From assembly GCA_015295835.1 (NCBI GenBank), contig DVEG01000003.1:124001-188000 (forward strand): DNA of 64,000 nucleotides, read 5' to 3'. Positions 6,902 to 16,555 of the stretch are shown here, piece by piece; positions within the stretch are counted from its first letter, which is position 1; the number at the start of each line of letters is the position of its first letter. The stretch comes from Oscillatoriaceae cyanobacterium M7585_C2015_266 (GTDB taxonomy: Bacteria; Cyanobacteriota; Cyanobacteriia; Cyanobacteriales; Oscillatoriaceae). The notes beneath the pieces are model-generated. The model made no database searches and was not told the DNA's origin. It saw only the letters and a program-made list of their open reading frames with translations. The position numbers were made by a program, and so were the translations under genes.

Positions 6902-7114
6902 ATGTGGCGTAAACATTCTTCGATAGTGATCGCGATGACGGTAGCAGTAGTTTCTATAGGAGCAGCTTCTTATCCAGCAGTAGCAAATGGATTACTAAAA
7001 GAAAGCATTACTCAAGTAAGAGACTTCATTACCAATCAGCAAAGCACTCAAACATTAAAACCAGAACAGAAGCAAAACTGCATTCCCGTTCCTTTTCCGC
7101 CTTTTTGCATTTAA
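6902..7114 (+). CDS. Small secreted protein with C-terminal Cys-bounded loop
   Basis: 70 residues from ATG 6902, chosen because AAGGAGA lies about 7 bases upstream. The frame continues upstream to a TTG at 6842 without a good ribosome site. MWRKHSS plus a hydrophobic stretch and AVANG make a classical Sec signal peptide with likely cleavage after residue 28. The mature part is about 42 residues, mostly polar and helical, ending in CIPVPFPPFCI: two cysteines bounding a Pro/Phe loop that could form a disulfide ring. I recognise no family. It precedes the exoprotein gene by about 150 bp, so it may be a secreted partner or peptide signal of that system. Confidence 0.65.
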   Translation: MWRKHSSIVIAMTVAVVSIGAASYPAVANGLLKESITQVRDFITNQQSTQTLKPEQKQNCIPVPFPPFCI

Positions 7115-7146
7115 TTGCTAAATAATAAAAATTTAATTATTGCCGG

Positions 7147-7174
7147 CAGCGAGGAGAGAATTTTCTTCTCGCTG
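7147..7174 (+). terminator. Hairpin between the small secreted protein and exoprotein genes
   Basis: CAGCGAG (7147-7153) pairs with CTCGCTG (7168-7174), with further partial pairing inside and a moderately T-rich sequence after it. It could terminate a short transcript of the small gene or act as an attenuator giving more small protein than exoprotein. Confidence 0.45.
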
Positions 7175-7263
7175 TATTGTATTAAAATATGAGGAAAATA
7201 CGGATAAAAAACGAAAAATTCAGAGATAAAATACTGTGATAGAAGCAAAAAATAACCTATGCT

Positions 7264-9546
7264 ATGAAATCATCTATAGGTAGAATCCTATACCTGACTG
7301 CTAATTTAGCCGTAGTATATGGGAGTACCAGCACTTTAGTGCGAGCGCAAATTACAGCAGATGGCACCTTACCCACCCAAGTAAATACAGCAGATAAAAT
7401 CAACTATACCATCGAAGGAGGCAGTCGAGTTGGAAACAATCTCTTCCACAGTTTTAGAGAATTTTCCGTGCCCACTGGAGGAAAAGCCTTTTTCAATAAC
7501 GCCCCAGACATACAAAATATCATCAGCCGCGTCACCGGAGGAAAAATCTCCAACATTAACGGCATCCTCAAAACCAACGACAGAGCCAATTTCTTCCTGC
7601 TCAACCCCAATGGAATAATATTTGGCACCAATGCCAGCCTAGAGATTGGCGGTTCATTCCTAGCATCAACAGCAAATAGCCTAAAATTTGCCGACGGCAC
7701 AGAATTTAGCGCCACCAACACCTCCACCAAGCCCCTACTTACCATCAGCATTCCAGTAGGGCTACAATTCGGAACAAATCCAGGCACAATAGTCAATCGC
7801 TCTCAAGCCAATCCATCGACAATTCCTAGCGCCAGCCCCCTCGGATTAGAAGTGCAGTCAGGAAAAACTTTCGCCTTAGTAGGAGGTGAAATACGTTTAG
7901 AAAGTGGCAATATCACCGCCCCAGGCGGAAGAATTGAATTAGGAAGTGTAGGAGCAAATAGTATAGTCAACCTAAGCCCTACAAACGAAGGTTTTGCCCT
8001 CAACTATGAAAAAGTACAAAATTTTCAAGACATTCACCTATCTGGAGGAGCTAACGTTGACGTCACTAGCTTCAACCCCTTAGTAGCTAGTGGCAATATC
8101 CGAGTGCAAGGAAGGCGCGTGACACTAACCGAAGGATCACAAATTTCATCTTTTACCACTTCAGCAATATCCTCTGGAAGTATAATCGTCACCGCGTCGG
8201 AATCAGTAGAATTACTCGGTACTGGTACAAAAGGAAATTTTCCCGTTCGCACCAGCCTAGCAACTACGACAATCGCTGATGGCAATGCAGGAGACTTAAT
8301 AATCTCTACTAAACGATTAATAGTGCGAGAAGGTGCGGGATTATTTACTAGCTCAGTTAACTTTCCTATGCAGAATCCTCAAGGTGGGGCTGGCAACTTG
8401 AGAGTAATAGCTTCGGAATTGGTAGAAATCAGCGGCGCTTCCCCAAAGCTGGGAACCAGTACATTAAGTGTAGAAACGAGAACTAAGGGAGATGCAGGAA
8501 CTTTAGAAATTATAACAGGACAACTGATCCTCAAAAATGGAGCCGAGGTGACAGCAGCAACTTCTGGTTTCGGTAGAGGGGGAACTATGGAGATAGTGGC
8601 TACCAAAGGAATAGAATTATCGGGTAGTGGAATTAGTACTAAAGGTGAAGTGATACCTAGTACTTTGAGAGCAACAAGTACAGGGGCGGGGGATGCTGGT
8701 AATTTATTGATTACTACTAATTTTCTTAATATTCGCGATCGCGCTGAAATCACTGCCAGCGGCACAGGTACGGGAGGAGCAGGTAACTTAAAAATTCGAG
8801 CTTCTCAACTTTTCCTCGACAATGGCAGTCGGATTAGAGCCGAAACTGCCGCAGGCAACCAAGGTAGCATCAAACTCAATTCCCGTAATATTATTTTGCG
8901 TCGCAATAGCTCCATTACCACGGAAGCAATCGAAACTGCCTCTGGTGGCAACATCACTGTCACCACAGACACAATAACAACTCTAGAAAATAGTAAAATT
9001 GTCGCTAACGCTATTCAGGGTGTAGGCGGCAATATTCAGATTACTACTCAGGGTTTTTTTCTCTCTGCCGATAGTTCAATTACAGCAAGTTCTAAATTTG
9101 GCATTTCCGGCACCGTCACCATTAATAACCCAGATGTAAATCTCAGCCCTGGATTGATTGACTTGCCAGACAATTTTACAGATCCTAGCAAAAAAATTTA
9201 TGTCGGATGTGCTGTCGATGATGGCAATTCCTTCACGGTTACCAGACGCGGCGGCTTGCCAGAAGATGTGACGACTATGAGCAGTCAAAATGTTTGGCGA
9301 GATTGGCAAGATTTTTCACAAGGTTTTGAAAATAATATTTTATCTTTATCGCCCCCCTATCAAGACGCTGCCCAGCCGCAGCCGCAAATGCAGGAAGCAA
9401 ATGCTTGGATGCTTGACGAAAAGGGAAATTTAAAATTGGTGGTTTCTTTGGCTACTGAATCGATACAAGGGAGGTGGCAGCAAATGCTTAATTGTAATAA
9501 AATAGAGCGAAGAAAAAGTGATAACAGCAAGCTGCCAAAGACATAA
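7264..9546 (+). CDS. Filamentous haemagglutinin N-terminal (TPS-domain) exoprotein
   Basis: 760 residues. A signal peptide (about 1-28, ending LVRA) leads into a two-partner-secretion domain (about 30-145) with the expected NPNGIIFG motif at 114-121 and GGSFLAST just after. The rest is Gly/Asn/Ser/Thr-rich, regularly repeating sequence typical of a right-handed beta-helix. Near the C-terminus is CAVDDGNSFTVTRRGGLPED, a signature common at the end of cyanobacterial TPS exoproteins. Such proteins cross the outer membrane through a TpsB/FhaC beta-barrel, which is not encoded nearby. Likely a secreted or surface-bound adhesin-like protein. It heads a close co-directional series with the CHAT, DUF928 and CHASE2 genes. 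Confidence 0.9.
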   Translation: MKSSIGRILYLTANLAVVYGSTSTLVRAQITADGTLPTQVNTADKINYTIEGGSRVGNNLFHSFREFSVPTGGKAFFNNAPDIQNIISRVTGGKISNINGILKTNDRANFFLLNPNGIIFGTNASLEIGGSFLASTANSLKFADGTEFSATNTSTKPLLTISIPVGLQFGTNPGTIVNRSQANPSTIPSASPLGLEVQSGKTFALVGGEIRLESGNITAPGGRIELGSVGANSIVNLSPTNEGFALNYEKVQNFQDIHLSGGANVDVTSFNPLVASGNIRVQGRRVTLTEGSQISSFTTSAISSGSIIVTASESVELLGTGTKGNFPVRTSLATTTIADGNAGDLIISTKRLIVREGAGLFTSSVNFPMQNPQGGAGNLRVIASELVEISGASPKLGTSTLSVETRTKGDAGTLEIITGQLILKNGAEVTAATSGFGRGGTMEIVATKGIELSGSGISTKGEVIPSTLRATSTGAGDAGNLLITTNFLNIRDRAEITASGTGTGGAGNLKIRASQLFLDNGSRIRAETAAGNQGSIKLNSRNIILRRNSSITTEAIETASGGNITVTTDTITTLENSKIVANAIQGVGGNIQITTQGFFLSADSSITASSKFGISGTVTINNPDVNLSPGLIDLPDNFTDPSKKIYVGCAVDDGNSFTVTRRGGLPEDVTTMSSQNVWRDWQDFSQGFENNILSLSPPYQDAAQPQPQMQEANAWMLDEKGNLKLVVSLATESIQGRWQQMLNCNKIERRKSDNSKLPKT

Positions 9547-9594
9547 AATAAAAATTTCTTTCGCAGCATTGGCAAAAAACAGGAGGGAGAGAAA

Positions 9595-12192
9595 ATGAGA
9601 AATGAAAAAATGAAGAAAAGCTATTTATTAGGCTGGTTGCTGTCTATAGTAAAACCTCCAGGTAAGCGGTTCAAAAAATATTTTCTTGGATTAGGATTGA
9701 CAACTATATTTGCCGTCACGGTAGGGGGGCTTACGATTGGGCGCACTCAATCGATTCTTTCTCATGGCTTACAACTGCTGCAACAGGGTAAGCAATTATA
9801 CGAAGCTGGGAGTTTTTTTGAAGCGGCAGCCCTCTGGGAAAAAGCAGCTAAAGAATATGAAACACAAGGGGATTTTATTAATCTAGCTCTGAGTTTAAAT
9901 TATTTGGCGTCAGCTTATCAAGAATTGGGGGAATGGGAGCGATCGCGTATAGCCATAGAGAAAAGCATCAAGTTATTAGAAAAGCAAAAAAATGATAGCA
10001 AAGGGCTGGGAATATTAGCACAATCTTTAAATAATATGGGCAGCTTACAACTAGCGATCGGACATACAGAAGCAGCCCTAGAAACATGGAGAAAAGCTGA
10101 AATAACCTATGCACAGGCGTTAAACGAAATAGGTAAATTAGGCAGTCAGATTAATCAAGCCCAAGCCTTGCAAGCACTAGGGCAGTATCGGAGGGCAAAA
10201 AATCTTTTAGAATCTCTTGTAGAAAAGATAAAAACTCAACCCGATACGCCACTAAAAGCAATGGGATTGCGGAGTTTGGGTGAGGTGCTACACAAAATAG
10301 GTGAGTTAATACAAGCGAAAGAAATTTTAGAGCAAAGTTGGGAAATCAGTGCTAGAATAGGTAACAGTGCCGAAACCAGCGCTACTCTTCTAAGCATCGG
10401 TAATATTGCCAGAGATTTACAACAATATGAGGTAGCTAGAGCATACTATCAACAGGCGGCGAAAATGGCGCAAAATGATTTTGCCCGTTTGCCTGCACAA
10501 CTAAATCAACTGAGCTTATTGGTAGAAAATGAAAAAAGGGAAGAAGCCCTTGCCCTTGGCAGGCAAATCAAAACAACTTTATCTAAATTACCTTCTTCTC
10601 GCGCTGCTATTTTTGCCAAAGTCAATTTTGTAGAAAGTTTGACAAAAATAAAAGGTTACGAAAGTGAGATAGGAGGAGAAGAAATTGCTAAAATAATAGC
10701 GGGGGCAGTACAGGAATCCCGGCAACTAAAAGACGCACGAGCGGAGGCATTGGCAGTCAATAAACTGGGAAATATTTACGAAAGAAACCAGCAGTGGGAG
10801 GAGGCAAAAACCCTGACGAACCAGGCACTGCAAATAGCTCAAAAAATAGACGCACCGGATTTGATTGCGCGCTCAGCTTGGCAGCTGGGAAGAATTAGAA
10901 AACAGCAGGGGGATATACAAGCTGCGATCGCAGCTTATACGGAAGCATTTGAAGCATTCCAATCCCTGCGCAGCGATCTCGCAGCCATTAGTTCTGACAT
11001 TCAATTTAATTTTAAAGAAAGTGTCGAACCATTTCACCGCGAAATGGTAAGCATATTACTGCAACCAAATGCCTCTCAAGCTAATATTATCAAAGCTCGC
11101 GAGGTAATTGAAGCATTACAATTAGCAGAATTAGACAATTTTTTTAGAGACGCCTGTTTACAAACCCATCCGGTACAAATCGATCAGATCGATCCGCAAG
11201 CAGCAGTTATTTATCCAATTATATTAAGCGATCGCCTAGAAGTAATCATTTCTGCTCCCAATCGACCCCTGCGCCACTACGCCACAGCCCTTCCCAGTTG
11301 GGAAATAGAAAATATTCTTCAAAAATTGTACTCTTCCCTATATTTGGGATATTCCGGTACTGAGAGACTGCGTCTTTCTCAACAAGTTTACAACTGGCTG
11401 ATCCAACCCGCAGAAGCAGAACTAGCAGCCAGCAACATAAAAACATTAGTCTTCGTGCTAGATGGGTTTTTACGTTCCTTACCAATGGCTGCCCTCTACG
11501 ACGGAGAGAAATATCTCATCGAGAAATATAATATCGCCCTTAGTCCTGGATTGCAACTTTTTCCAGAAGGGCTACAACGCAGTAAACTCGAAGTTCTTGC
11601 AGCTGGATTAACCGAAGCAAGAGCTGGATTTTCCGCTTTACCAGGAGTTGAGACAGAGATAAAGCAAATTAGTTCTAAATTTAAAGCAAAAGTGCTGCTG
11701 AATGAGAATTTTACCCGCGCCTCCTTTAAAAGCCAAATAGAGAAAGGCTCACCGCAAGTGGTTCACCTAGCCACTCATGGGCAATTCAGCTCCAATCCGG
11801 AAGAAACATTTTTACTAACGTGGGATGGGCAATTTGGAGTTAAGGATTTTGAACGGGTGCTAGAAACGCGGCAGCGGTTTCATCGTAACCCGATTGAGTT
11901 GTTAGTTTTGAGTGCCTGTGAAACCGCAGCGGGCGATCGCAGAGCAGCATTAGGCTTAGCAGGATTTGCCCTTCGCTCAGGAGCGCGTAGTACAATAGCA
12001 ACATTATGGTCAGTTAACGACGAGTCTACCGCTGCACTAATGGCGGAATTTTATCAAAGATTAACCCAGTCCAATGTTAGCATGACCAAAGCGCAAGCCC
12101 TGCGAGAAGCTCAATTGACCCTTTTGAAAAATCCTGATTACAACCATCCCTATTTTTGGGCTCCTTTTGTATTAGTAGGAAACTGGTTATAA
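9595..12192 (+). CDS. TPR-CHAT domain protein (caspase-like protease)
   Basis: 865 residues. The start follows a strong AGGAGGGAG site. One hydrophobic anchor (about 29-49) precedes many tetratricopeptide repeats (about 55-460), then a CHAT domain (about 560-865). The catalytic dyad is visible: His728 in HLATHG and Cys775 in LSACETA, followed by RSGARSTIATLWSVND. CHAT peptidases are relatives of caspases and separase that cut specific partners, and TPRs usually recognise the partner. The anchor suggests it faces the periplasm or is tethered at the membrane. It lies 48 bp behind the exoprotein gene and 24 bp ahead of the DUF928 gene, so processing of the exoprotein or a related partner is a reasonable but unproven guess. 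Confidence 0.92.
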   Translation: MRNEKMKKSYLLGWLLSIVKPPGKRFKKYFLGLGLTTIFAVTVGGLTIGRTQSILSHGLQLLQQGKQLYEAGSFFEAAALWEKAAKEYETQGDFINLALSLNYLASAYQELGEWERSRIAIEKSIKLLEKQKNDSKGLGILAQSLNNMGSLQLAIGHTEAALETWRKAEITYAQALNEIGKLGSQINQAQALQALGQYRRAKNLLESLVEKIKTQPDTPLKAMGLRSLGEVLHKIGELIQAKEILEQSWEISARIGNSAETSATLLSIGNIARDLQQYEVARAYYQQAAKMAQNDFARLPAQLNQLSLLVENEKREEALALGRQIKTTLSKLPSSRAAIFAKVNFVESLTKIKGYESEIGGEEIAKIIAGAVQESRQLKDARAEALAVNKLGNIYERNQQWEEAKTLTNQALQIAQKIDAPDLIARSAWQLGRIRKQQGDIQAAIAAYTEAFEAFQSLRSDLAAISSDIQFNFKESVEPFHREMVSILLQPNASQANIIKAREVIEALQLAELDNFFRDACLQTHPVQIDQIDPQAAVIYPIILSDRLEVIISAPNRPLRHYATALPSWEIENILQKLYSSLYLGYSGTERLRLSQQVYNWLIQPAEAELAASNIKTLVFVLDGFLRSLPMAALYDGEKYLIEKYNIALSPGLQLFPEGLQRSKLEVLAAGLTEARAGFSALPGVETEIKQISSKFKAKVLLNENFTRASFKSQIEKGSPQVVHLATHGQFSSNPEETFLLTWDGQFGVKDFERVLETRQRFHRNPIELLVLSACETAAGDRRAALGLAGFALRSGARSTIATLWSVNDESTAALMAEFYQRLTQSNVSMTKAQALREAQLTLLKNPDYNHPYFWAPFVLVGNWL

Positions 12193-12216
12193 ATAGCAAA
12201 AATTTTACAGCGAGGT

Positions 12217-13170
12217 ATGAGTATGACAAAAAAACATCTCTCAATTTCTCAAACTGTATTTTCCCTTGGATTAACCGGAGCGCTTGTAGTTGGGACATTT
12301 CCAAACTCACAAGTACAAGCACAGCAGAAAACCGGTTTAGAAACCCGCTTTGATCAAACTCTCATCAGCGTGCAATTTCAACCCCCAGGGGATATCGCAC
12401 CCCGGAACACAAAAGGCGGAGGCACCCGTGGCAGCATCCGATTTGCACCCCCAGGGGATGCAGCACCTCGCAGCACGAGGAGCGGGGGCACCCGTGGCAG
12501 CATTCAATTTGCACCCCCAGGAGATGCGGCACCTCTCAACACTGCTAACGGGGGAACTCGTGGTAGTGTTCAATTTGCACCCCCTGGGGATGCGGCACCA
12601 GTCAACACTGCTAACGGGGGAACTCGTGAAGAAGCTGTTTCAAAGTTAGTGGCATTGATTCCGCAGACACAAATAGGTCGAACGGTAGCGGCTCGTCCAA
12701 CTTTCTTGGTATATGTTCCGGCAACGGCTTCAAAAGAAGTATTTTTCAGTCTGCAAGATGAAAACAGAAATCACCTCTATCAGACAACTTTGAAAATCTC
12801 AGGTGGAGGCGGAATTGTACAAGTGACGGTGCCAAAAGATGCGCCGGAATTGGAAATCGGAAAAAATTATGCTTGGTTTTTCGCACTCATCGAGCCGGGA
12901 GATATTTTGCGCCCCGATAGTCATGGAGTCAGCGGCTGGGTTAAACGCGTTGAAGCGCCGAAAAATATCACTCAAATTTCATCTCTGAAACCTATAGAGT
13001 TGGCAGCATTGTATGCTTCCTCTGGAATTTGGTACGATACGCTCACGCTATTAAGTGCAGCCAAATCGGCTGAACCAGAAAATGTTACATTAGCAAATGA
13101 GTGGAAAAAACTGTTGCAACAAGTTGGACTGGAGGCGATCGCCACACAGCCCATCGTCGAACAGTTATAA
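12217..13170 (+). CDS. DUF928 protein with four tandem signature repeats
   Basis: 317 residues. A Sec signal peptide (about 1-36) is followed by four consecutive 22-residue repeats (residues 51-138) built on FAPPGDAAP..T..GGTRG, then the DUF928 body (about 139-250) and a helical C-terminus. In other DUF928 proteins, as I recall, a single PP...GGTRG segment opens the domain; here that opening segment is multiplied. Predicted to be periplasmic. DUF928 genes commonly accompany CHAT and haemagglutinin-type genes in cyanobacteria, and here the gene lies between CHAT and CHASE2 genes with 24-26 bp gaps, indicating one operon. Biochemical function unknown. Confidence 0.88.
   Translation: MSMTKKHLSISQTVFSLGLTGALVVGTFPNSQVQAQQKTGLETRFDQTLISVQFQPPGDIAPRNTKGGGTRGSIRFAPPGDAAPRSTRSGGTRGSIQFAPPGDAAPLNTANGGTRGSVQFAPPGDAAPVNTANGGTREEAVSKLVALIPQTQIGRTVAARPTFLVYVPATASKEVFFSLQDENRNHLYQTTLKISGGGGIVQVTVPKDAPELEIGKNYAWFFALIEPGDILRPDSHGVSGWVKRVEAPKNITQISSLKPIELAALYASSGIWYDTLTLLSAAKSAEPENVTLANEWKKLLQQVGLEAIATQPIVEQL
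12367..12630 (+). repeat. Four 66-bp in-frame tandem repeats
   Basis: Four direct copies of a 66-bp unit encode 22 residues each (PPGD...GGTRG). Copies 3 and 4 are most alike at DNA level, sharing AACACTGCTAACGGGGGAAC, which suggests recent duplication. The reading frame is preserved throughout. Confidence 0.9.
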
Positions 13171-13196
13171 ACGATCAAAAGTTAGCCATAGAAAAA

Positions 13197-15434
13197 ATGT
13201 GGCAAAAGCTGAAAAAATATATCAGGGAATGGCAAGGGGTTTTTATAATTGCTCCCAGCGTGGCAGGATTCGTCATTGCTGGGAGTCTTACCGGCTTTTT
13301 TCAATTATTGGAATGGGCAACTGTCGATCAATTTTTTCGTCTCCGCCCAACTGAACCGGTTGATGAACGGATCGTGATTGTCACGATTGATGAGTCAGAT
13401 ATTACTAATGTCGGGAAATGGCCATTACCTGATCGCGTCATCGCCCAGTTGTTAAAAAAAATTAAAGCTCAACAACCACGAGTAATCGGCTTGGATAATT
13501 ATCGCGATTTGCCGGTAGAACCAGGGCATCAAGAATTGGTTCAAGTGTTCGAGTCTACCCCCAATTTGATCGGCATTGAAAAAGTGGGCGGAAATCAAAT
13601 CGCTCCTCCGCCAACGCTAAATAAATTAGGGCAAGTTGCCGCTTCTGATTTGGTAGTCGATGCCGACGGCAAGGTGCGTCGGGCTTTAATGTTGATCGGA
13701 AGTCCCGATGGTCGTTTTAGAGAAGGGCTGGGGACAAAATTAGCACTGATGTATCTGGCAGCAGAAAATATATCACTACAAACTATTGATGAAAATAAGA
13801 AAATATACCAGTTAGGACAAGCGGTTTTTGTACCTTTAACGGGAAATGAAGGAGGATATATTGCCTCGGATACGGGCGGCTATCAGATTTTGTTGAATTT
13901 TCGAGGAGGGATAGATCGGTTTCCAACTGTATCAATAACAGATGTGTTGGAAAATCGCATTCCTCCTGATTTAATGCGCGATCGCATAGTTTTAATTGGC
14001 ACAACGGCAGAAAGTCTTAAAGATATGTTCCCCACTCCTTATTCTAATACTCTGTTTGTTATGGGGAAGCTGACGCCAGGAGTAGCAATTCATGCTAATG
14101 TCGCCAGTCAAATTTTGAGCGCCGCTAAAGAAGGACGCCTTATGTTGCGAGCTTGGACAAAAACTGAAGGCGCCCTTTATATTTTGGTTTGGTCTTTTGC
14201 CGGCGCGCTCGCATGTCTGCAATCTCTCCAAAACCAATTATTTAAAAAATCTATTTATTTTACTGGAACAATTTATACTATTATAGGGGGAGGAATACTG
14301 GTGATTGTCGGCAGTTATGCTGCTTTTCTGTCCGGCTGGATAATACCAGTATTTTCGCCCCTGTTATCATTGACATTTTCAGCAATTTTGCTGGCTAATT
14401 ATCAAAGCCAATTACAGTTAAAAATAGCTAATGAGCGCCTGGAACATGCTAACCATCAACTAGCAGAGTATTCTCATATCTTGGAAACTAAGGTAGACGA
14501 AAAAACGCGAGATTTGAAAAAAGCTCTAGAAAATCTAAAAGCTACTCAAGCCCAACTAATTCATTCAGAGAAAATGGCAGCTTTAGGGCAAATGGTAGCC
14601 GGAATAGCTCATGAAATAAACAATCCAACAAATTTTATTTTTGGCAATATAAATTATGCAGAAAAATATGCATATGATTTAATGAGATTGATACAAATTT
14701 ATCAAAATAATAAACAAGAAGATCCAGTTACTAAAAAGTTAATAGAAGAAGTAGACTTTGAGTTTTTGCAAGAAGATTTTCCCAAAGTGCTGAATTCTAT
14801 AAAAACAGGAGCTAACCGGATTCGGGAAATAGTAAAATCTTTGAGAATATTTTCCAGACTCGACGAAGCAGAACTAAAAAGTGTCGATCTTCATGAGGGA
14901 ATTGAAAGCGCTCTCATGCTTCTAGAAAATCGCCTGAAGAGTAACCGAATAGATATTCCATCAATTCAAGTGATTAAAGAATACGGAAATTTACCAGAAG
15001 TTACTTGTTATGCTGGGCAGCTCAATCAGGTGTTTATGAATCTGCTCATCAATGCAATCGATGCTCTAGAAGAAAGACAAAAACAACTCAGCCCAGAAGA
15101 ATTGAGAAAAAATCCTAGTGTTATTAAAATAATAACTTCGCTCAAGGAAAATTCGCAAGTCTTTATCTCAATCTCAGACAACGGTTTAGGAATACCAGAA
15201 GCTATCCAACAGCGAGTATTTGATCCGTTTTTCACAACAAAACCTGTGGGCAAAGGAACAGGATTGGGATTGTCGGTTTCTTACTCTATTGTCGTAGAAA
15301 AACACGGCGGGCAATTGCGTCTTTACTCGAAACCTGGAGAAGGAACTGAATTTCAGATTGAAATTCCCCTACGATTATCAACAGAGAAAAGTAAGCCTAT
15401 GTCTGATTTTACCGCTAATCGTATTCTAGCTTAA
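13197..15434 (+). CDS. CHASE2-domain sensor histidine kinase
   Basis: 745 residues from ATG 13197. The open frame begins earlier at 13101 but overlaps the DUF928 gene, and the CHASE2 pattern starts after residue 15. Order: transmembrane helix (about 17-38), extracytoplasmic CHASE2 domain (about 40-320), three membrane helices (about 325-420), coiled coil (about 425-460), HisKA with phospho-acceptor His472 (MVAGIAHEINNP), and an ATPase domain with N, G1 (SDNGLGIPE), F (DPFFTTKP) and G2 (GKGTGLGLSVSY) boxes. It senses an unknown envelope signal. No response regulator gene lies beside it. It is the last gene of the exoprotein-CHAT-DUF928 series, 26 bp after DUF928. Confidence 0.92.
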   Translation: MWQKLKKYIREWQGVFIIAPSVAGFVIAGSLTGFFQLLEWATVDQFFRLRPTEPVDERIVIVTIDESDITNVGKWPLPDRVIAQLLKKIKAQQPRVIGLDNYRDLPVEPGHQELVQVFESTPNLIGIEKVGGNQIAPPPTLNKLGQVAASDLVVDADGKVRRALMLIGSPDGRFREGLGTKLALMYLAAENISLQTIDENKKIYQLGQAVFVPLTGNEGGYIASDTGGYQILLNFRGGIDRFPTVSITDVLENRIPPDLMRDRIVLIGTTAESLKDMFPTPYSNTLFVMGKLTPGVAIHANVASQILSAAKEGRLMLRAWTKTEGALYILVWSFAGALACLQSLQNQLFKKSIYFTGTIYTIIGGGILVIVGSYAAFLSGWIIPVFSPLLSLTFSAILLANYQSQLQLKIANERLEHANHQLAEYSHILETKVDEKTRDLKKALENLKATQAQLIHSEKMAALGQMVAGIAHEINNPTNFIFGNINYAEKYAYDLMRLIQIYQNNKQEDPVTKKLIEEVDFEFLQEDFPKVLNSIKTGANRIREIVKSLRIFSRLDEAELKSVDLHEGIESALMLLENRLKSNRIDIPSIQVIKEYGNLPEVTCYAGQLNQVFMNLLINAIDALEERQKQLSPEELRKNPSVIKIITSLKENSQVFISISDNGLGIPEAIQQRVFDPFFTTKPVGKGTGLGLSVSYSIVVEKHGGQLRLYSKPGEGTEFQIEIPLRLSTEKSKPMSDFTANRILA

Positions 15435-16555
15435 CTAGCCTAACTCTATTGACACAGGCATTGCTTGGCAAAAAATTACAAATTTAAAAGTCAAACTCAC
15501 TCTGTACCCAGTTAGGTCACCAGAAAGACTATATAATGTGCGAGGGGAGAGGTCAAATTAGTCAAGATATATTCATACCATAGATAGAGGTAGGGAAAAA
15601 TCTAGAAATTTAACATAAAGAGTAGGGGAAACTGGACATCTGGGAAAGATATTAAGAAAATCTGTGAAATATCAAAGCGACTTAGATTTCCAGTTTAAAT
15701 AATGCACAAGCCTGAACTAATAGCGAGCGCAAGGGAGGACTTATATAAGTCCATCAAATAGGCGCAAGTCCATATGGAAAGCGGCAGAACCGTCTAAGTA
15801 ATAACACTGTCTAGTTATTACTACCAATGACGACTGCTGCGGTTCGGTGATCGCGATCCATAGTGCCTACTCAGTTTCGGAGGACTAGATCATTATAGTA
15901 AATGAGAAAGTACAAAAGTACAGCAGTACCTAGAAATAGGCTCTAACAGGAGTTTCTCGTAGGCTCTTAGAAAATCAGTTTCTAAGAGAAACCGGATTTA
16001 TGAGATTGCCGTGAGAAGCTCTCCGACAGTAGCTGCTTTCACCTTACCAGTTCACCTTTAGCAATCTCATCCAAATCAATAAGCGCAATTTTACCAAAAA
16101 ATGGCCTTTATCTCGCAAAGGTTCCGCTCAAAAGCTCCCTCTTCTGGGGTGCGCCCCAAAAGACGGTAGTGGAAAGCCAATCTTAATGTTAGCTGTTTCT
16201 GTAGTTTGGGGAAAGCTTAAGAATAGAAGGGTAAAAAATGAACTTTTGGATCTTTACCGATGTCTAAATTAGCAATACTCTAGAAAAAGGAACTCATACC
16301 GACTTCGACTTTAACAAACCAGTCAGTATCAAAAATGTTTGCCGGTAGGGAGAAATCGGGTTCCCCGCCGGAGAAAACGCTCATAGAAAAAGTGAGTAAA
16401 GAGAAACCCGGTTTCTCAGCAGTGTTTATGTAAGGGGTATTTCGCTGTTTCTAGATAAGAAACCAGGTTTCTGTGATAAACCCCGTTCGTTTTCCTGCCC
16501 TTAAAAAAAGGCAGGCGAAAGCTATTTCTTATGTTTAGGGAGTAACGAGTCACCC
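15435..16555. other. Long gene-free region rich in palindromes and hairpins
   Basis: No convincing protein gene in about 1.1 kb. Visible structures are a TATAAT hexamer (15532-15537), a perfect 16-bp palindrome (15737-15752), TCCATATGGA (15769-15778), and a 9-bp stem AGTAATAAC/GTTATTACT (about 15796-15822) nested in GAACCG/CGGTTC. There is also a CTTAGAAA/TTTCTAAG hairpin (about 15965-15985), a 10-bp stem ATGAGATTGC/GCAATCTCAT closing about 16000-16070, and several AGAAACC-type palindromes. This could be a structured RNA gene, a decayed MITE, or the regulatory region of the sigma factor gene. Confidence 0.5.
16401..16472. repeat. Dispersed AGAAACC(C/G)GGTTTCT palindromes
   Basis: GAGAAACCCGGTTTCTC is a perfect 17-nt palindrome at 16401-16417, and AGAAACCAGGTTTCT lies at 16458-16472. 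Degenerate half copies occur near 15986 and 16349. The same unit builds hairpins at 20380-20408 and 62905-62936. It behaves as a short dispersed intergenic repeat. Confidence 0.7.

Follow-up and report, generated by a model that had tools for sequence, protein, structure and literature searches.

A recurrent cyanobacterial gene quartet of TpsA, TPR-CHAT, DUF928 and CHASE2 receptor, with a possible role as a periplasmic signalling relay

The window analysed here is a stretch of 64,000 nucleotides from Oscillatoriaceae cyanobacterium M7585_C2015_266 (G000:C29:124001-188000; source genome 3.98 Mb, 98.5% complete). Its plus strand carries four adjacent genes (7264-15434) for a TpsA exoprotein of a two-partner secretion (TPS) system, a protein in which tetratricopeptide repeats (TPR) precede a CHAT peptidase domain, a DUF928 protein, and a CHASE2 receptor histidine kinase. 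The same order is found in 36 loci, 35 of them distinct, and the quartet very probably forms one functional unit. That this unit is a periplasmic signalling relay watching the exported TpsA is the reading we lean towards, at slightly better than even chances. A preliminary description of this DNA had proposed a five-gene system opening with a small secreted peptide; its five open reading frames, all on the plus strand with gaps of 149, 48, 24 and 26 bp, are borne out by the coordinates, and recurrence upholds four of its members, while the 70-aa (amino acid) peptide probably drops out for lack of relatives and because of a hairpin in between. The features are as follows.

7264-9546, plus strand: TpsA exoprotein, 760 aa, with the TPS secretion domain at aa 28-281 (PF05860, 3.5e-66; TIGR01901).
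9157-9543, plus strand: C-terminal GGLP module of TpsA, Cys649 and Cys744 flanking TRRGGLP (RRGGLP at 9244-9261), from an alignment of 32.
9595-12192, plus strand: TPR-CHAT protein, 865 aa (PF12770, 2e-66, and TPRs), with an N-terminal hydrophobic helix, a TPR array at about aa 57-462 and CHAT at aa 593-863 (Pfam and model).
11776-11778 and 11917-11919, plus strand: CHAT catalytic pair, His728 and Cys775, in conserved columns.
12217-13170, plus strand: DUF928 protein, 317 aa (PF06051, 3.1e-55), modelled as a beta sandwich and three helices (about aa 145-302).
12366-12628, plus strand: 66-bp units (22 aa) repeated in tandem within the unstructured tail of DUF928 (Tandem Repeats Finder, TRF, 3.1-3.5 copies).
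13197-15434, plus strand: CHASE2 receptor histidine kinase, 745 aa (CHASE2 1.8e-72, HisKA 2.5e-07, HATPase_c 2.4e-23), with CHASE2 at aa 24-338, the HisKA histidine His472 at 14610-14612 (AGIAHEINNP) and HATPase_c at aa 608-726.
7146-7175, plus strand: terminator-like hairpin of 13 pairs between the peptide gene and tpsA.
6902-7114, plus strand: 70-aa secreted-type peptide ending in CIPVPFPPFCI, excluded from the system; no Pfam, PADLOC or NCBIfam family.

All family matches of the quartet proteins lie above the Pfam cut-offs, the closest being HisKA (31.1 against 26.9 bits); the TPS domain scores 224.1 bits against a cut-off of 33.5, and the CHAT domain 224.8 against 24. The last protein has CHASE2, a HisKA domain with its histidine, and HATPase_c, as a CHASE2 receptor histidine kinase does. 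A Pfam scan agrees with the preliminary description that the five proteins include neither a TpsB pore nor a receiver domain, and the His728/Cys775 pair that it had named is present in CHAT (HLATHG; SACET). None of the listed terminator-like sites falls in the gaps of 48, 24 and 26 bp, and two weak promoter-like matches (9/12) touch the 48-bp gap before the CHAT gene. Upstream, the hairpin at 7146-7175 has the most pairs among 16 terminator-like sites in the region (shuffles expect 10.5 sites), and the whole intergenic segment 7115-7263 folds with -29.3 kcal/mol (z -3.61), a value equalled in 0 of 200 shuffles. A single transcript for the four genes is likely from this arrangement.

Neighbourhood analysis confirmed that CHAT, TpsA, DUF928 and CHASE2 genes recur together. 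In these locus counts the gene labels came from profiles seeded with the source-genome proteins and iterated once, not from Pfam, and a quartet was defined as the four labelled genes in the order TpsA, TPR-CHAT, DUF928, CHASE2 on one strand, whatever the gap lengths, with unlabelled frames in between ignored (one such frame, in L071). The source genome itself holds three quartets (in the window and on contigs C21 and C32). DUF928 is present in 55 of 60 genomes of the order, in 1-20 copies each. A DUF928-anchored sample comprised 100 regions from about 29 genomes, the upper part of a score-ranked listing with neighbouring matches merged; here a partner lay within 4 kb in 85 regions (CHASE2 in 63, CHAT in 51, TPS in 37, TpsB in 13), and the full quartet was found in 13. 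Within that distance of DUF928 the density of CHASE2 genes was 73.7 per Mb as against 4.4 in the outer parts of the regions (17-fold), and that of CHAT genes 50.3 as against 16.3 (3-fold). A second sample was anchored on TPR-CHAT and took the best 80 of 554 loci, so that it is biased toward the nearest relatives of the query; 24 loci with less than 4 kb on a side were dropped, leaving 56, and its named genomes we take to be cyanobacteria. A partner lay within 5 kb in 55 of these 56 loci (TPS 43, GGLP module 42, CHASE2 39, DUF928 38, TpsB 6), and 19 had the full quartet order.

The closest association concerns the end of TpsA. An alignment of 32 TpsA C-termini defines a module, at the end of stand-alone TpsA proteins, with two conserved cysteines around a (T)GRGGLPP motif and a VEAQGW...L segment; C18, G32, G33, P35, A81 and L94 are invariant, and C113 is kept in at least 90%. 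The motif of the window TpsA is itself divergent (TRRGGLPED, the consensus being TGRGGLPPxP). The module was found in 39 of 40 stand-alone TpsA proteins with an intact 3' end, the exception of which should be a 191-aa fragment in L081, and in none of nine proteins in which TPS and CHAT are fused. A screen of 117 genomes of the phylum scored at most 39 and 8 candidates per genome in two of its searches, and its cross-table was drawn from the matches listed. Among these matches, 31 genomes had the module, 31 the TPR-CHAT class and 37 a TPS domain above cut-off, and the genome sets with the module and with the class were identical (31/31). The class is sharply set off, with a best E of 1.4e-159 or below in 31 genomes and 2.5e-86 or weaker in the remaining ones (in G152 the best TPR-CHAT stretch spans positions 382-863 only). 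Of the 37 TPS genomes, 31 had both module and class, none had one without the other, and six had neither (Fisher 4e-7, kinship ignored). Families f33 and f8 hold both states and change in step, and family f14 also holds both states for module and class. DUF928 was listed in 37 of the 117 genomes, 36 of them TPS genomes.

The six TPS genomes that lack the module have nine TPS genes, none with a module: six encode proteins fused to CHAT, a separate CHAT frame follows one, another lies beside TpsB and the last is cut at its end. In the first sample there were also nine TPS-CHAT fusions, eight of them with no TPR match. The preliminary description had named the exoprotein as a candidate partner of CHAT, and of the partners that it proposed this one is best backed by the data, through the module and the TPR-CHAT class in the same 31 of 117 genomes and through the fusions. 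It is likely, from such sequence comparisons, that the TpsA C-terminus contacts the TPR-CHAT protein. Contig C18 of the source genome carries a TPS-CHAT fusion of its own (L027:6636-9041, 801 aa). In L144:585-4481 a TPS frame ends in Pro-Glu and then Asn-Arg repeats, with a separate CHAT frame next, perhaps a TPS-CHAT fusion split by a frameshift in the repeat.

The TPR-CHAT protein is probably an active peptidase. Of 61 aligned CHAT stretches, 60 preserve the columns of His728 and Cys775, and the remaining one is short and stops before the site. Whether a protein is exported was assessed with a hydrophobicity window, which was passed by 46 of 47 TPR-CHAT proteins, 93 of 119 DUF928 proteins and 22 of 36 TPS proteins; a second strong hydrophobic stretch occurred in 2 of the 47 TPR-CHAT proteins. 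This fits a protein that is exported or anchored at its N-terminus. The label "membrane-anchored" given to it earlier thus stands as far as the hydrophobic N-terminal stretch goes, a signal anchor and a cleaved signal peptide being indistinguishable here. The structure model (mean predicted local distance difference test, pLDDT, 84.9) matched Csx29 with Z up to 29.6, separase with Z of about 22-25 and DdvA with Z 23.0; proteins with TPRs only also reach Z 22-25, and therefore only full-length spans argue for kinship. A sequence comparison of the CHAT part with PDB chains gave no match, which left the acid of the S1 pocket, as a test of arginine preference, without a template.

Three known proteins resemble this one in part. 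Csx29 likewise has a TPR array followed by CHAT with its His-Cys pair (eight Csx29/TPR-CHAT chains at Z 27-30), and the available part of the published account describes its peptidase as switched by a bound trigger, cutting Csx30 on target RNA binding (PMC10028731). Unlike the quartet protein, Csx29 is an RNA-triggered CRISPR component (type III-E, Craspase), and the window protein fails the NCBIfam Csx29 model NF041237 (26.4 bits against a cut-off of 300). DdvA (PDB 8rw5, 8rot) matches the model over aa 12-862 (508 aligned residues, root-mean-square deviation, rmsd, 7.2) and is, by its PDB title only, a transmembrane anti-sigma factor, thus a membrane signalling protein, whereas the quartet has a separate CHASE2 receptor. 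HetF of Anabaena, in the available part of its description, is a cyanobacterial protein with CHAT, TPR and one predicted transmembrane segment; there, however, CHAT is N-terminal (aa 1-555) and the role lies in the divisome, whereas here CHAT occupies aa 593-863 of 865 (PMC8406250).

The model of the DUF928 protein has a mean pLDDT of 73.3, with 152 residues at 90 or above and values below 50 across most of aa 33-137. Read from the translation, its tail holds four copies of FxPPGDxAPxxTxxGGTR, of which a strict pattern counts two. With the strict pattern, which undercounts the window protein, a GGxSRG-type core occurs in all 35 quartet DUF928 proteins, and in two to seven copies in 16 of them. 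The best VIA-align match of the model was the C-terminal domain of MtxA (PDB 4z29; Z 9.7, 148 aligned, rmsd 4.1, 11% identity; next row 7.5). According to the part of its description that was available, MtxA of Magnetospirillum is a protein with a signal peptide and an Ig-like and TPR-like C-terminal fold, and is specific to magnetotactic bacteria, and in magnetotactic strains its gene precedes that of a CHASE2 adenylate cyclase; the same text names no TPS protein or CHAT with it (PMC4439547). The window DUF928 gene also lies directly before the CHASE2 gene, with a gap of 26 bp, and among the 100 regions DUF928 precedes CHASE2 on one strand 27 times and follows it 27 times. Fold, by VIA-align, and gene context agree although identity is 11%, and MtxA seems to share the tie to CHASE2. 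DUF928 likely contacts the CHASE2 receptor, to judge from gene and protein comparisons.

At the CHASE2 end, the input cassette is kept while the output is exchanged between species. In the source genome the output is a kinase in one quartet, a PAS-cyclase in another and a kinase-receiver-cyclase in the third. Once an identical quartet (L201 = L125) and a cut one (L176) were dropped, the outputs of 34 distinct quartets were hybrid kinase in 15, cyclase in 6, SpoIIE-type phosphatase in 5, GGDEF in 3, kinase with cyclase in 3 and kinase in 2. By parsimony the output changed 12 times on the CHAT tree and 11 times on the CHASE2 sensor tree, the minimum possible being five; shuffles gave a mean of 17.8 changes, with 0 of 200 as low, so outputs are also clustered on the tree. 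Eleven of the 31 inner branches were starred, and the starred ones alone force fewer changes. A scan of 58 CHASE2 tails, which left out 14 proteins matched to their very end and one 65-aa tail, found cyclase in 25, HisKA in 14, GGDEF in 12, EAL in 8 and SpoIIE in 3. Since the input is conserved and the output swapped, a quartet with an easily measured output such as a cyclase can be chosen for testing. The preliminary description overlooked these interchangeable outputs, the tandem tail of DUF928 and the apparent parallel with MtxA.

Co-variation among the parts was followed through correlations of distance matrices, in 33 quartets (one without a module match was dropped beforehand) and again in 23 after the removal of one clade and one near-copy; paired values below are given in that order. 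The CHAT domain correlated strongly with the CHASE2 sensor (0.94/0.78), as did DUF928 with CHASE2 (0.91/0.82) and CHAT with DUF928 (0.90/0.70); the GGLP module correlated with the TPR part at 0.84/0.69. The TPR part correlated with CHASE2 at 0.59, and the TPR and CHAT halves of the TPR-CHAT protein with each other at 0.45. The N-terminal domain of TpsA correlated with CHAT at 0.46/0.16 and, in the set of 23, was weak with everything (0.09-0.24), including its own C-terminal module (0.11). It follows that TpsA evolves in company with the sensor unit at its C-terminal end but not at its N-terminal one. From the ranking one may guess at contact between the module and the TPR part, and between the CHAT domain and DUF928 and CHASE2.

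For the relay, we infer location, contacts, direction of signalling, proteolysis and the target of CHAT along the following lines. TpsA would leave the cell through a TpsB pore encoded elsewhere, its C-terminus with the two-cysteine GGLP module last. The exported-looking TPR-CHAT peptidase would hold that module, probably in its TPR superhelix, and the state of the module (export, engagement or tension of TpsA) would switch the CHAT domain. The switched domain would then act on the DUF928 protein, a putative periplasmic partner of the CHASE2 receptor with its beta sandwich, helices and disordered repeated tail, and CHASE2 would drive its own output, in the window a histidine kinase with no adjacent receiver gene. 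A stop of the TpsA C-terminus in the periplasm is made plausible by analogy with FhaB of Bordetella, a C-terminal prodomain of which is trimmed by periplasmic DegP and CtpA; the likeness lies in this handling of a TpsA C-terminal part by periplasmic proteases, and the available part of that account, unlike the present locus, names no DUF928 or CHASE2 (PMC8263021). As to the cleavage itself, CHAT might cut TpsA near the module, a proposal somewhat short of even odds; a cut in the DUF928 tail is doubtful, and CHAT may also do no more than alter its shape. DegP and CtpA belong to protease families other than CHAT. A more specific version, quite speculative as a whole, would be a periplasmic Craspase-like switch, in which docking of the GGLP module in the TPR superhelix arms CHAT, CHAT cuts the GGxSR-G repeats of the DUF928 tail (1-7 copies) and so frees DUF928 or locks it on CHASE2, and repeat number sets gain or threshold, one input cassette serving kinases, cyclases, phosphatases or c-di-GMP enzymes.

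Several results weigh against the relay, or against parts of it. The two contact faces suggested by the co-variation are not cleanly separated: the module also correlates with DUF928 (0.82/0.61) and CHASE2 (0.78/0.57), with the CHAT domain only at 0.77/0.47, and in the set of 23 the TPR part correlates with DUF928 (0.66) nearly as well as with the module (0.69). In that set the module is tied to CHAT more closely than the N-terminal domain is; the difference is 0.30 (95% range 0.00 to 0.57), and for the full set the 95% range is 0.11 to 0.45. Plain co-inheritance together with reshuffling of tandem tpsA genes yields such correlations too. The GGLP profile derives from 32 TpsA ends that belong to the very sample in which the module was later counted. 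Among the matches listed, 41 of 81 TPR-CHAT genes are preceded by a module at no more than 3 kb, 31 of them at no more than 600 bp. TPS genes are not enriched within 4 kb of DUF928 (22.3 per Mb, as against 53.3 outside), the TPS gene of a quartet sitting beyond CHAT as seen from DUF928, and TpsB is nearly equal near DUF928 and outside (11.2 and 8.9 per Mb). DUF928-CHASE2 pairs exist with no CHAT or TPS in the region, and any relay is therefore combinatorial. The arginine of GRGGLP is replaced (by K, S, G, Y, T or P) in 7 of 39 TpsA proteins, mostly at CHAT loci; with the residue so variable, arginine-specific cutting at this motif was rejected as a general mechanism. The tail motif is present in 16 of 16 DUF928 proteins from quartets, in 38 of 48 others from loci with CHAT and in 50 of 55 from loci without it, and being as frequent where CHAT is missing it is weakened as a CHAT-specific site. 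MtxA, finally, is not among the first 50 Foldseek matches of DUF928, where a carbohydrate-binding module ranks top. Confidence in the relay, and in two of its contacts, was lowered slightly because the co-variation singles out no one contact face and because MtxA does not stand high in the Foldseek ranking.

The strongest alternative is that the TPR-CHAT protein is a dedicated protease for the maturation or release of TpsA, cutting its C-terminal module in the periplasm, with DUF928 and CHASE2 as a separate sensor that sets operon expression. The 31 TPS genomes with both module and TPR-CHAT and the six with neither, among the matches listed, would be expected of such a protease, as would the fusion of CHAT to the ends of TpsA proteins that lack the module; FhaB is a known case of C-terminal trimming in the periplasm, as far as the source goes (PMC8263021), and DUF928-CHASE2 pairs do occur alone. 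On the other hand, the CHAT domain tracks CHASE2 and DUF928 (0.78 and 0.70 in the 23 quartets) above the module (0.47), though the TPR part follows the module (0.69); the output is swapped within a constant four-gene order; and the module motif has no strictly conserved basic residue. Taken together, we regard this alternative as rather unlikely. Less probable still is co-inheritance with no shared mechanism, in which useful envelope genes travel together and the target of CHAT is unrelated. The partners do occur in other combinations, and common descent alone can correlate distances; this leaves the constant order in 36 loci (35 distinct), the presence and absence in step inside families f33 and f8 (among the matches listed), the different behaviour of the two ends of TpsA and the TPS-CHAT fusions to be accounted for.

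An anti-phage or contact-dependent killing device, in which a surface-triggered CHAT executes a partner, is very unlikely. CHAT precedents exist, as in the partly available account of Csx29 cutting Csx30 on target RNA binding (PMC10028731). The defence role thought possible in the preliminary description finds in PADLOC, however, only a generic TPR model, a weak and partial BovA match (23.7 bits) and a weak "oxidoreductase" model (18.1 bits), with no named defence protein matched over most of its length among the five proteins; Pfam gives these five no toxin or pore-former family, and the scanned outputs are regulatory domains. Hardly credible at all is the five-gene version, in which the Cys-loop peptide is a CHAT substrate or a signal: the peptide looks exported and lies on the same strand 149 bp upstream of tpsA, but a search of 59 other genomes, 7 of the same family, turned up no relative (present in its own genome only, 1/60) while quartets are widespread; the peptide is also absent from 111 other loci compared, has no match in Pfam, PADLOC or NCBIfam, and is separated from tpsA by the hairpin. 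With no relatives and a hairpin behind its gene, the peptide is judged to be no member, and the unit is probably 7264-15434.

No description of the quartet turned up among the open-access PubMed Central papers listed, and DUF928 was found there in one paper only, the available part of which reports that genes for CHASE2, DUF928 and WD40 cluster in one of the seven cyanobacteria that it surveyed (PMC5587647). Each of the families is known; what would be new is a form of CHAT-peptidase signalling that works in the periplasm and in connection with two-partner secretion. Most CHAT peptidases that have been studied act as executors in the cytoplasm or the nucleus, and the periplasmic partners of CHASE2 receptors are poorly known. 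Here an exported-looking CHAT protein tracks, from genome to genome, the C-terminal end of a surface exoprotein, and it is accompanied by a CHASE2 receptor; DUF928, so far a family of unknown function, acquires a role that can be tested, and MtxA gains a parallel. The quartet may inform the cell on the state of its own surface proteins, and if the relay is true these cyanobacteria could sense that state.

The pore for TpsA could act in trans, as the preliminary description had allowed: a genome search found two ShlB-type TpsB proteins, one on contig C3, in a DUF928 > TpsB pair, and one on C25, neither beside the window tpsA, though either may pair with it. In L220, L221 and L236 TpsB lies between TpsA and CHAT, which answers the absent pore gene in kind. 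Downstream of the quartet, the roughly 1.1 kb from the CHASE2 kinase to a sigma-factor-like gene (15435-16555) hold one 68-aa minus-strand frame at their end and no Rfam match; Rfam found three tRNAs and nothing else in the window. Elsewhere DUF928 > TpsB pairs occur with no adjacent CHASE2 or CHAT (e.g., L025, L034, L058, L073, L093, L117); DUF928 stands directly before TpsB in them and may therefore also concern the pore. Tandem tpsA genes are a further recurrent arrangement: in G082:C86:224-20496 six consecutive TPS matches, each followed by a GGLP module match, lead into one TPR-CHAT gene, and several tandem tpsA genes are also found in G139:C3, G128:C47, G004:C38 and G099:C1, so that a whole series of surface proteins may share a single peptidase. 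In L127:1097-5422, TPS and TpsB domains share one 1441-aa frame with a GGLP module, beside a CHAT gene.

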